DNA from: Cryomorphaceae bacterium
Lineage (GTDB): Bacteria > Bacteroidota > Bacteroidia > Flavobacteriales_D > Sanyastnellaceae
DNA length: 64,000 nt
Reading direction: 5' to 3'
NCBI GenBank assembly: GCA_016124575.1
Contig: WGNM01000011.1
Location: 1-64,000, forward strand
Below are positions 32,742 to 35,681 of this stretch, one piece after another. The position numbers and the translations under genes are program-made. Numbering within the stretch: position 1 is the first letter of the stretch; each line of letters begins with the position of its first letter. The notes under the pieces are model-generated. The model ran no database searches. It was not told the origin of the DNA and saw only the letters and a program-made list of their open reading frames with translations.

Positions 32742-32777
32742 TGACCCGTACTAAAATAATGACCCGTACTAAAATAA
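32742..32777. repeat. perfect 18-bp tandem duplication
   Basis: TGACCCGTACTAAAATAA occurs twice back to back (32742-32759, 32760-32777) with no mismatch, which suggests a recent event or maintained function. Confidence 0.9.
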
Positions 32778-33023
32778 GTTTACAGATTATTGACTAAGTA
32801 CTTGCATGGATATACATGGTTGATCTACGTCCTGCATTGAGTAAACTCATTTCATTTCAAGGCATTTCATTTAACTCGAACGACTCACTATTCTCGCATT
32901 GCAGAAAAATATAGAACAATTATTTCTTGCACTTTATGGAATCTGAACCTCTCCAGCATCTTATGGTTGGAGTGCACCCCAAACCAGGTTTCATCCGGCC
33001 GAAAGGCCTAAATAAAAAAGTGT

Positions 33024-33746
33024 ATGAAAAATTTATTTATCCTTCTGCTCGCATTGATAAGTGCTGATGCAATGAATGCCCAAGTATGGGGCGAAATTCA
33101 CGGAAAAGTGAAAGGTTCTGATATCGGAACGCTCCTAAGTGCCAATGTGTTTGCCTCGGCTGGCGATAAACAAATTGGTGTTTCAACCGACCTCGATGGT
33201 GAGTTCAAACTTAAACCTCTCAATCCTGGAACTTACAATATCACAGTTTCATTTATCGGATATCATTCTACAACCATTCAAGGTGTGGTGGTAAAACCTG
33301 ATCAGGTGACGTTTCTGAAAGATGTGGTGCTTGAACCTCTTACTGTAGTCATCGGAGACGGCGCCGAAGTCATTACCTATACTGTTCCTTTAATTAACCC
33401 AGAAGAAACTTCTCGTATGACGACGTTGAAGGCCGACCTCGACCACTCACCTGCGCGTCGTGATATCAAAAATGTAATTACCGCTATGTCGCCGGGAGTG
33501 ACCATTGACCCAGCAACTCAAGAACTGCATTTTAAAGGAACACGCACTGATGCCATTCAATACATTGTAGATGGTGTGAAACTAATGGGCAACTACACTG
33601 CTTTGCCGGCTAGCGGTGTGGGCAGTGTCTCGGTCTACACAGGAGGTGTCCCTGCCAAATATGGCGACCTCACCGGTGGGGTTGTCATCATCGAATCTGT
33701 AAGTTATTTTGACCTCTACAATGATTGGATCAATAAGAACCGCTAG
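33024..33746 (+). CDS. TonB-receptor plug-only protein with carboxypeptidase-regulatory-like domain
   Basis: 240 residues. A signal peptide (1-19, ending MNAQ) is followed by a carboxypeptidase-regulatory-like beta-sandwich (about 22-105, VWGEIHGKVKGSDIGTLLSA) and a TonB-dependent receptor plug domain (about 135-225, with DIKNVITAMSPGVTIDP, IQYIVDGVKLMG and GGVPAKYGDLTGGVVII). The protein stops 15 residues after the plug, where a receptor would start its 22-strand barrel, so there is no channel. The stop is a normal TAG and no barrel-coding frame follows. Instead, an ECF sigma gene begins 9 nt downstream and an anti-sigma-like gene follows it. Confidence 0.85.
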   Translation: MKNLFILLLALISADAMNAQVWGEIHGKVKGSDIGTLLSANVFASAGDKQIGVSTDLDGEFKLKPLNPGTYNITVSFIGYHSTTIQGVVVKPDQVTFLKDVVLEPLTVVIGDGAEVITYTVPLINPEETSRMTTLKADLDHSPARRDIKNVITAMSPGVTIDPATQELHFKGTRTDAIQYIVDGVKLMGNYTALPASGVGSVSVYTGGVPAKYGDLTGGVVIIESVSYFDLYNDWINKNR

Positions 33747-33755
33747 TTTCACTGA

Positions 33756-34304
33756 ATGATAATCGGCAAACGCATATCGAAACTGACCGATGAAGAACTC
33801 ATCTCCCGCTACCGCAATCGTAAAGAAAACAAGGTGGTGGGAGAACTCTTCAATAGATATGCGTTGCTGGTAGTCGCCATTTGCCGAAAATACCACTCCG
33901 ATGATGCGGAAGCTGAAGATGCCGCAATGGTGGTTTTCGAATCGCTGTTTCAACTGCTACTCAAACATGATGTGGCAGCGTTCAAGCCTTGGCTCATGAC
34001 CGTTACGCGCAATCAATGCCTGATGGCGCTGCGGAAACAAAAGCCAAACGTGCATGTGAATGCGGATGCGGTAGACATCGCAGAAGATCAAAATACGGAT
34101 GTCGACAAGGAACATTTGCTCTCATTGCTGGAATCAGCTCTCGATGCGCTGAAGCCTGAACAGCAGTTGTGTTTGCGGTTGTTCTACCTCGAGCAAAAGG
34201 GATACAGTGAAATTGCTGAGAATACAGGTATGGCCTTGAAAACAGTCAAAAGCCACTTGCAAAATGGGAAGAGAAACCTTCTCAATACGATGAAACAACC
34301 ATGA
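33756..34304 (+). CDS. ECF-type RNA polymerase sigma factor
   Basis: 182 residues with sigma region 2 (about 12-85, LISRYRNRKENKVVGELFNR and YHSDDAEAEDAAMVVFESLF) and region 4 (about 120-175, ALDALKPEQQLCLRLFYLEQ with YSEIAENTGMALKTVKSHLQ as the helix-turn-helix). It is not closely similar to the ECF factor at 3.8-4.3 kb, so the two probably serve different regulons. It lies 9 nt after the plug-only gene and overlaps the next gene by 4 nt (ATGA), forming a three-gene cassette. Confidence 0.92.
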   Translation: MIIGKRISKLTDEELISRYRNRKENKVVGELFNRYALLVVAICRKYHSDDAEAEDAAMVVFESLFQLLLKHDVAAFKPWLMTVTRNQCLMALRKQKPNVHVNADAVDIAEDQNTDVDKEHLLSLLESALDALKPEQQLCLRLFYLEQKGYSEIAENTGMALKTVKSHLQNGKRNLLNTMKQP

Positions 34305-35323
34305 AACCTTCGACACCATATAACTCTGATCAAGACCGCATCTTACGGTATATCGGCGGCGAAATGACGGGCCAAGAAAGGCACGATTTCGAAGCTGAAA
34401 TGGTCGACAATGTAGCGTTGTCGGATGCCGTTGAGGGCGCCGAAATGCTCTCTTCTCCATCCAAAACATTGGCGCGTTTGAAAAAACGTTCGCGCAAACC
34501 GTTCTTTATGAAATGGGTTGTGGGTATAGCTGTGTTGTGTGCACTGGTAGCCCTGTTCTTTGTCCTCGACAACATCCAAAAACCCATTGCCACAAGTGTT
34601 GTAACGGAAGTAAACGATGTGCAGGTGCAACGCATCATTGCCGTGCCTGCTGAACACAACGACAGTACGTTTTCTTTCGCAGTAAACACTGTTGATGAGC
34701 CAAAATCTCAAGGCAGTGAAACAACTACCGCTGAAACGTGGCGTGTGGCGGTTGAAGCTCCGTACAAACTGCAAAAAAAGCACGTGAAGCCTTTGAGCAC
34801 TGAAACTGAAAAATCAATTCTCAGGGTTTTTGGCAACGATGCCATCTACCACATCCAAAACTATAAGGTGGTAGACTACCGGATACGTACTACGAATTTG
34901 GAAAATTTATCTAGTGGAATGCCCGCTGATAATCGAGCCGGACTGGTACCTAAAAAGGAACAGGTGACTTACATCGCTTTCTTGGAAGAAACTATGCAGT
35001 TTTTTGCCGAACATAACTACACAAAAGCATACGCTGGTTTCAATGCCATTCTTGCTAGTTTCGCCGACGATGCGAATGCCCAATTCTACGGTGGGATGTC
35101 GGCACTGCAACTCGGTAACTTCGCTGCGGCTGAATCGCTGTTCTTGAAATCAACACAAAATACCACGCTGACGTTCAATGAAGAAAGTAGGTTCTATCTC
35201 GCCACGGCTCGGATGTTGATGGGCAATAAAAATGCTGCATGTCTCGATTTTTCTGCCATCGCACAGCAAGGTGGATTCTACGCTGAACGCGCAAATGAGG
35301 AACTAAAACGCTTTTGCAAGTAA
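34301..35323 (+). CDS. membrane anti-sigma-like protein with TPR-type C-terminus
   Basis: 340 residues. The N-terminal cytoplasmic segment (1-60) contains ILRYIGGEMTGQERHDFEAE, the zinc-less 'ml.yi.g.lt..E...fE' start seen in Bacteroidota anti-sigma-like proteins. One membrane helix follows (about 70-91, MKWVVGIAVLCALVALFFVL). The C-terminal part (about 230-340) has TPR-like helices (NYTKAYAGFNAILASFADDA, LGNFAAAESLFLKSTQ). It starts within the sigma gene stop (ATGA overlap), so the two are coupled. I infer that it sequesters the sigma factor until an envelope signal arrives; the plug-only protein is a candidate input. Confidence 0.7.
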   Translation: MKPSTPYNSDQDRILRYIGGEMTGQERHDFEAEMVDNVALSDAVEGAEMLSSPSKTLARLKKRSRKPFFMKWVVGIAVLCALVALFFVLDNIQKPIATSVVTEVNDVQVQRIIAVPAEHNDSTFSFAVNTVDEPKSQGSETTTAETWRVAVEAPYKLQKKHVKPLSTETEKSILRVFGNDAIYHIQNYKVVDYRIRTTNLENLSSGMPADNRAGLVPKKEQVTYIAFLEETMQFFAEHNYTKAYAGFNAILASFADDANAQFYGGMSALQLGNFAAAESLFLKSTQNTTLTFNEESRFYLATARMLMGNKNAACLDFSAIAQQGGFYAERANEELKRFCK

Positions 35324-35596: not shown

Positions 35597-35623
35597 AGTC
35601 CCGCACGAGCGGGACTTTTTTTT
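35597..35623 (+). terminator. strong hairpin terminator
   Basis: An 8-bp stem, AGTCCCGC with GCGGGACT, a 4-nt loop, then a run of eight or more T. It closes transcription from the sigma/anti-sigma cassette or from the mini-ORF upstream of it. Confidence 0.85.
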
Positions 35624-35681
35624 GTCCTTTGAACTCCATCCGCAAGAATTTCTTACCTTGATGTTGATCAAACCTTACCGC

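Follow-up and report, generated by a model that had tools for sequence, protein, structure and literature searches.

In the window, a stretch of 64,000 nucleotides (nt) from a Cryomorphaceae bacterium (GenBank assembly GCA_016124575.1, contig WGNM01000011.1, positions 1 to 64,000), three adjoining genes encode an exported protein with a TonB plug and no barrel, an extracytoplasmic function (ECF) sigma factor, and a membrane-anchored anti-sigma-like protein. The plug-only protein is best read as a regulated output of the sigma factor, rather than as a FecA-like input or a broken transporter. The operon as a whole is interpreted as an autoregulated envelope-response module in which this output perhaps also takes part in feedback, a reading to which a probability of about two in three was assigned.

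The original prediction had described three genes in tight order, the first encoding a signal peptide, a carboxypeptidase-regulatory-like domain and a plug, and stopping where the barrel would begin. This description was borne out by the open reading frames and by Pfam (Table 1). A gap of 9 nt separates the first two genes, leaving no room for a barrel remnant between the plug stop codon and the sigma gene, and the second and third genes overlap at ATGA. The Plug match of the window protein scored 28.9 bits against a Pfam cut-off of 23.9, and neither a barrel family nor the STN domain was among its six Pfam matches (E ≤ 1). CarboxypepD_reg and Plug were both matched (E ≤ 1) by all 28 plug-only members of alignment A1 (28 of 33 rows; L047, L054, L055, L069 and L074 were left out), and STN was not among the 25, out of 44, Pfam families listed for these members. 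No lipobox was seen by eye in the signal peptide, and Q20 was invariant in the alignment. Against the SusC/RagA family TIGR04056, the window protein scored 29.1 bits, far under the cut-off of 368.25. Within its own genome, 25 Plug matches were obtained; 24 of them lie in open frames of 768–1232 amino acids (aa), and the window copy alone sits in a short frame (244 aa).

Among full-length proteins, its nearest relatives are receptors encoded in frames of about 1217–1303 aa; these carry the same two domains, with 32–41% identity across both, and belong to the same bacterial order. Such frames were listed for most of the 60 genomes searched. The genome of the window itself (G000) encodes a 1227-aa receptor of this kind (G000:C31:223256; L077:7239-10922), whose first two domains are among these closest relatives and for which no NCBIfam model scored above its cut-off. 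Plug-only proteins were compared with the N-termini of the 21 distinct closest receptors. The plug core was conserved, with a mean pairwise identity of 0.55–0.56 in plug-only proteins versus 0.69 in receptors. Where the receptors enter the barrel, the plug-only family has a short tail with the consensus IETKSYFDLY (IESVSYFDLY in the window copy). Of the plug-only proteins, 25 of 29 and 17 of 20 (42/49) had the tail pattern, versus none of the 21 receptors.

The sigma factor matched Sigma70_r2 (PF04542) and r4_2 (PF08281), with no region 3 among its seven Pfam matches (E ≤ 1), and scored 93.8 bits with TIGR02937, for which the cut-off is 42.9. With the Bacteroidetes sigma family TIGR02985 it reached 76.2 bits, below the cut-off of 126.4. 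The third protein matched no Pfam or NCBIfam anti-sigma family and gave a weak TPR_16 match under its cut-off. FecR was not matched by the window protein (E ≤ 1), nor was it among the 18 families matched by 23 members of the protein's family (E ≤ 0.01); TPR_6 was matched by 19 of these 23 at the latter threshold. Two of 25 rows were left out of each of alignments A2 (L059, L071) and A3 (L060, L066). The relatives of the third protein share its N-terminal region, a YKVVDY-type motif and a C-terminal region resembling tetratricopeptide repeats (TPR). Judged by position, the N-terminal helical region, one predicted transmembrane helix and conservation, the protein is probably an anti-sigma factor restraining the sigma factor of the operon, and its TPR-like domain is probably periplasmic.

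Intact plug-only frames of 237–303 aa were found in at least 32 of the 60 genomes searched, including the genome of the window. Among the 32 plug-only loci examined (31 fetched loci and the window), the sigma gene adjoins the plug gene in 28, counting two sigma genes interrupted by a contig end (L055, L056) and a divergent one (L071). After the sigma gene, the anti-sigma gene was seen in 24 of these loci; the remaining four comprise three loci at contig ends and L071, in which there was no such gene. Recurrence beside sigma/anti-sigma pairs, suggested as a check in the original prediction, was thus observed. No pair was nearby in three loci (L065, L070, L074), the last of which belongs to a genome with an anti-sigma gene elsewhere. 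In L059, two tandem plug genes (L059:5861-7449) are followed about 3 kb further on, behind other genes, by the pair; tandem plug-only genes also occur in L143 (two copies) and L154 (three copies). Since the flanking genes vary, the three genes are regarded as the unit. The plug core, the C-terminal tail and the end point are common to the plug-only relatives.

Forty further anti-sigma loci were inspected. The plug gene was adjacent in all 11 loci outside family f9 and in none of the 29 inside it, adjacency in several f9 loci being judged on a short stretch, since these end within a few hundred bases 5' of the sigma gene. A plug-only gene elsewhere was carried by 37 of the 38 f9 genomes with an anti-sigma gene; in the remaining one, G188, the anti-sigma gene is shortened (264 aa) and has no recognised sigma gene beside it. 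The expected conservation of the plug gene with its sigma gene therefore holds, as adjacency outside f9 and as an unlinked gene inside it. In 20 f9 plug loci and in L074, the plug gene stands in several different contexts, single or in tandem. The f9 sigma/anti-sigma pair lies near a gene that we take, by eye, to encode a 6-phosphofructokinase-like protein, with an exported protein of 264–313 aa encoded between them in L088, L092, L095, L099, L102 and L103.

Across the order, presumably Flavobacteriales, the anti-sigma profile matched 154 of 249 genomes, with a score of at least 100 bits in 122 of them; eight first-look candidates were scored per genome, so misses are possible. For the co-occurrence count, the anti-sigma gene was accepted at ≥100 bits and short plug frames were taken from the plug searches of the genomes. 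Both genes were present in 118 of 245 genomes, the anti-sigma gene only in 4, the plug gene only in 17, and neither in 106 (Fisher p = 3.7e-45, not corrected for kinship). Frames judged by eye to be cut receptors (G085, G127, G131, G187) were left out of this count, a partial plug frame beside an anti-sigma gene (G081) was counted as absent, and a gene starting at a contig end (G151) as present; G241, G242, G243 and G247 lay outside the plug-profile search. In two of the genomes with the anti-sigma gene only (G106, G119), that gene lies 125 bases or less from a contig end. In two with the plug gene only (G110, G113), the plug gene is at a contig end and the next genes may simply be unsequenced.

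In a phylum sample of 296 genomes, two anti-sigma matches covered most of the length, both from this order, and the best of the others were partial. Two Cyclobacterium assemblies and one each of Lutimonas, Flavobacteriaceae and Flammeovirgaceae gave partial anti-sigma matches or none. In the samples searched, full-length anti-sigma-like relatives thus appear to be limited to this order. When the plug profile was run on 198 phylum genomes, all matches listed outside the order were in frames of at least 785 aa.

The sigma and plug genes have a promoter-like site in common. The pattern T[AG]TGGAA-N(13-15)-CATC lies upstream of linked operons and also of plug and sigma genes that are unlinked. The form of the site, GGAA followed some 14–15 nt on by CATC, is like that of ECF promoters. 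Scoring covered 87 plug genes from 83 loci (72, 13 and 2 unclear), after the long frames L075 and L137 had been dropped. With starts set by the profile, 60 of the 72, which include tandem copies and a few contig-end genes, had a perfect site and 9 a site with one mismatch (69/72 at no more than one), versus 2 of 72 in reversed upstream regions. Counts for the strict form were 22 of 33 in the first set of plug genes, 19 of 24 for the plug genes of f9 and 22 of 28 for sigma genes that stand unlinked; wrongly placed starts or variants account for some of the misses. In 2.02 Mb of loci (both strands), 79 strict matches were counted against 4 for the reversed pattern, and the strict site was upstream of none of the 566 other genes in those loci.

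Were the site recognised by this sigma factor, it would be expected to be missing before the plug genes of genomes that lack the pair. A plug gene without an anti-sigma gene at 100 bits occurs in 17 genomes. In 13 of them (seven of genus g20 and six of g29), the site was absent from all plug genes (0/13), the best matches having 3 or 4 mismatches of 11. All six g29 genomes with an anti-sigma gene have the site; these and the genomes of the siteless clades were fetched after the pattern had been set. In the gene tree, the 13 siteless plug genes fall into two clades (support 0.99 and 0.999), suggesting that the site and the anti-sigma gene were lost together on two separate occasions. The contig-end plug genes of G110 and G113 are preceded by the site. 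The presence of the site before operons and unlinked genes, and its absence where no anti-sigma gene was detected, make it probable that the sigma factor controls the plug gene and the operon that encodes it.

The following mechanism is proposed. The single-pass anti-sigma protein, with its TPR-like and probably periplasmic domain, would hold the ECF sigma factor. Once released, the sigma factor would start transcription of its own operon at the TATGGAAT-N13-GCATC site, and the product encoded first, which is also the most constant, would be the exported protein that consists only of the carboxypeptidase-regulatory domain and the TonB plug. This protein would act in the periplasm, binding or sealing outer-membrane barrels or other partners that expect a plug, and might damp the anti-sigma protein in feedback. 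The plug gene has the sigma-type site even when it stands alone, and in that respect it behaves as an output. It has also been kept without the site in the 13 genomes that had no detectable anti-sigma gene, which points to some use apart from the regulator.

Several observations weigh against this interpretation. The persistence of the plug gene without the anti-sigma gene means that part of its role is independent, and the sealing or binding of outer-membrane barrels by the plug is hypothetical. The site pattern was fixed after most of the upstream regions later scored had been viewed, and the counts are partly in-sample. In G197 the site is present and an anti-sigma gene was not found, which is either contrary to the prediction or a missed gene; in G011 the sigma gene is divergent, the anti-sigma search gave no match, and the site is weakened by two mismatches. 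Absence of the pair here means that the anti-sigma gene was not detected, the sigma gene not having been searched genome-wide. The sister of the g20 clade in the gene tree was weakly supported (0.25). Structure models were poor, with a mean predicted local distance difference test score (pLDDT) of 41.8 for the plug protein and 51.6 for the anti-sigma-like protein, the latter with block means of 69–89 from residue 261 on. Finally, 40 genomes in which no anti-sigma gene was detected still had 0.66 pattern matches per Mb (reversed pattern, 0.20).

Among the alternatives, a feedback brake survives best, although it was rated as rather unlikely. The plug would bind and stabilise the anti-sigma TPR domain, and the level of free plug would report the state of the outer membrane, much as RseB and CpxP damp their own systems. 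The plug is the most constant partner of the pair, stands first in the operon, and is apparently under the sigma factor's own promoter, and the anti-sigma protein has a TPR-like, probably periplasmic domain; the brake accounts poorly, however, for the plug-only genes kept in 13 genomes without a detectable anti-sigma gene. Slightly less probable still is a broader role of free plugs as envelope effectors, in which plugs released by the sigma factor, alone or within larger proteins (L227), would dock into unplugged or mis-assembled barrels, seal leaks, and report barrel status to the anti-sigma protein.

The original prediction had suggested a sensing input, that is, a FecA-like sensor cut down to its plug that relays an outer-membrane signal to the anti-sigma protein, perhaps docking to another receptor or an energiser. 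The tight operon and the conserved neighborhood are what such a sensor would show. In the comparison with the receptors, however, the stretch resembling a TonB box was decayed in plug-only proteins, with a mean pairwise identity of 0.16–0.23 versus 0.54 in the 21 receptors. The E[VF]EV[VI]xY-like motif, a pattern of our own making for what we take to be the TonB box, was seen in 15 of the 21 receptors, against two of 29 and one of 20 plug-only proteins. A TVTREDI/KMPG element was found in 0 of 49 versus 16 of 21. Docking to an energiser was not supported. Sensing is further opposed by the lack of an STN domain, the FecR family and a barrel in the searches described, by the sigma-type site of the unlinked plug gene and by its retention where no anti-sigma gene was detected; as the gene behaves as an output, this part of the prediction was judged improbable. 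Its other part, a wiring different from that of FecA/FecR/FecI, agrees with the same lack of STN, FecR and barrel.

Our first idea, that the protein is the plug of the type IX secretion translocon, a counterpart of the protein closing SprA in Flavobacterium johnsoniae, was dropped and is considered very improbable. No SprA-plug chain (presumably that of entry 6H3J) was among the matches listed for the single sequence (E ≤ 1) or the family profile (E ≤ 0.01), the presence of the chain in the library not having been checked. What speaks for it is analogy, as a separate plug protein closing that barrel has been described (PMC9127263). A truncated or decayed receptor standing beside the sigma gene by chance, which the receptor-like identity across the same two domains might suggest, was ruled out, since full barrels at the same position in relatives were looked for and the same short architecture, with intact genes, a shared end point and a conserved tail, was found instead in at least 32 of the 60 genomes.

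The regulated-output reading can be set beside several known systems. As in FecA/FecR/FecI, an ECF sigma factor and a single-pass regulator stand beside a TonB-plug gene, and periplasmic contact is conceivable; unlike there, STN, barrel and FecR family are missing, the TonB-box-like stretch is decayed, and the plug gene has a sigma-type promoter site and also occurs unlinked. The SusC/RagA-type and related TonB-dependent receptors of Bacteroidota have the same carboxypeptidase-regulatory domain followed by a plug, whereas here a short conserved tail takes the place of the barrel. In SigmaE/RseA/RseB and Cpx/CpxP, too, control is exerted from the membrane and the regulator governs an exported product, but the exported product here is a TonB plug, and no sequence relation is claimed. 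The SprA "Plug" of type IX secretion would be a similar free-standing, barrel-closing protein if the sealing hypothesis holds, although no sequence match to it was among the matches listed. In another member of the phylum, Flavobacterium psychrophilum, an ECF sigma/anti-sigma pair is among the genes behind an ECF promoter class of its own, SM6, as described in PMC9723704; the site in the window differs, reading TGGAA ... CATC.

The extent of the regulon beyond the operon was examined with the same pattern. In eight genomes, the pattern gave 49 matches and its reversed form 6; across 40 genomes that have the pair, the rate was 1.32 per Mb (reversed, 0.25). Genomes in which no anti-sigma gene was detected likewise had more matches than the reversed control, which makes that control too lenient, and many single sites are therefore chance occurrences; the difference between 1.32 and 0.66 per Mb corresponds to an excess of about two sites per genome, operon included. 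A wide regulon defined by the pattern was therefore dropped, several sites also lying inside coding frames. Retained as likely members on this sequence evidence are the operon and the plug genes, together with an exported family of 441–456 aa. The site was upstream of this family in 4 of 9 genomes scanned (G000, G012, G038, G123), with start codons 34–48 nt after its first base and 8–22 nt after its end, which implies a very short leader. The family has a carboxypeptidase-regulatory domain, weak in the copy of the window genome. That copy, a 447-aa exported protein, follows the second full-form site of this genome (G000:C9:27556; L232:191-1531), its start lying 34 nt after the first base. Further single sites precede a 1593-aa macroglobulin-like protein (L227:280-5058; MG2, A2M and TED, carboxypeptidase-regulatory domains and an embedded barrel-less plug; start codon 40 nt after the first base of the site), a VWA protein (L228) and a MuiA-type protein (L229); these three sites may be chance matches.

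Some features around the operon were also recorded. An 18-nt direct repeat, TGACCCGTACTAAAATAA, occurs in two tandem copies upstream of it (window 32742-32777). A terminator-like stem with a T run lies 274 nt 3' of the anti-sigma stop codon (window 35597-35626), and terminator-like sites around it were no commoner than in shuffled sequence. In five close relatives (L044-L048), not in the window, the operon is adjoined by a gene on the other strand that encodes about 1450 aa; the C-terminal end of the L045 copy resembles, by eye, gliding-motility-type tails.

Table 1. Coordinates of the operon and its features in the window.
Feature	Position	Strand	Basis
Promoter-like site TATGGAAT-N13-GCATC	32935..32960	+	Comparison of upstream regions; first base 89 nt 5' of the plug start codon
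Plug-only protein, 240 aa	33024..33746	+	Open reading frame and Pfam
Predicted signal peptide, about residues 1-20 (MKN, hydrophobic stretch, AMNAQ)	33024..33083	+	By eye
Carboxypeptidase regulatory-like domain, residues 25-103	33096..33332	+	Pfam PF13620, E 6.8e-13
TonB plug domain, residues 131-220	33414..33683	+	Pfam PF07715, profile 8-107 of 107; own-genome search
C-terminal tail, residues 221-240	33684..33743	+	Tail pattern, plug-only proteins versus receptors
ECF sigma factor, 182 aa	33756..34304	+	Pfam Sigma70_r2 and r4_2; TIGR02937
Membrane-anchored anti-sigma-like protein, 340 aa	34301..35323	+	Family alignment A3
Predicted transmembrane helix, residues 67-92	34499..34576	+	Single-sequence AlphaFold2 and hydrophobicity by eye; low confidence
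C-terminal TPR-like helical region, residues 218-339, proposed periplasmic	34952..35317	+	TPR_6 in relatives; helices in model

The matches listed in an open-literature search, in which several queries returned little, included no report of plug-only proteins encoded in an ECF operon. TonB plugs are usually regarded as parts of transporters. A conserved barrel-less plug gene, apparently controlled by a sigma factor and co-inherited with its regulator across the order, raises the prospect that a plug may serve as an envelope protein in its own right. With a defined promoter-like site and few genes to consider, the idea is directly testable in a cultured member of the order with all three genes, and it offers a way into outer-membrane stress sensing in these bacteria.

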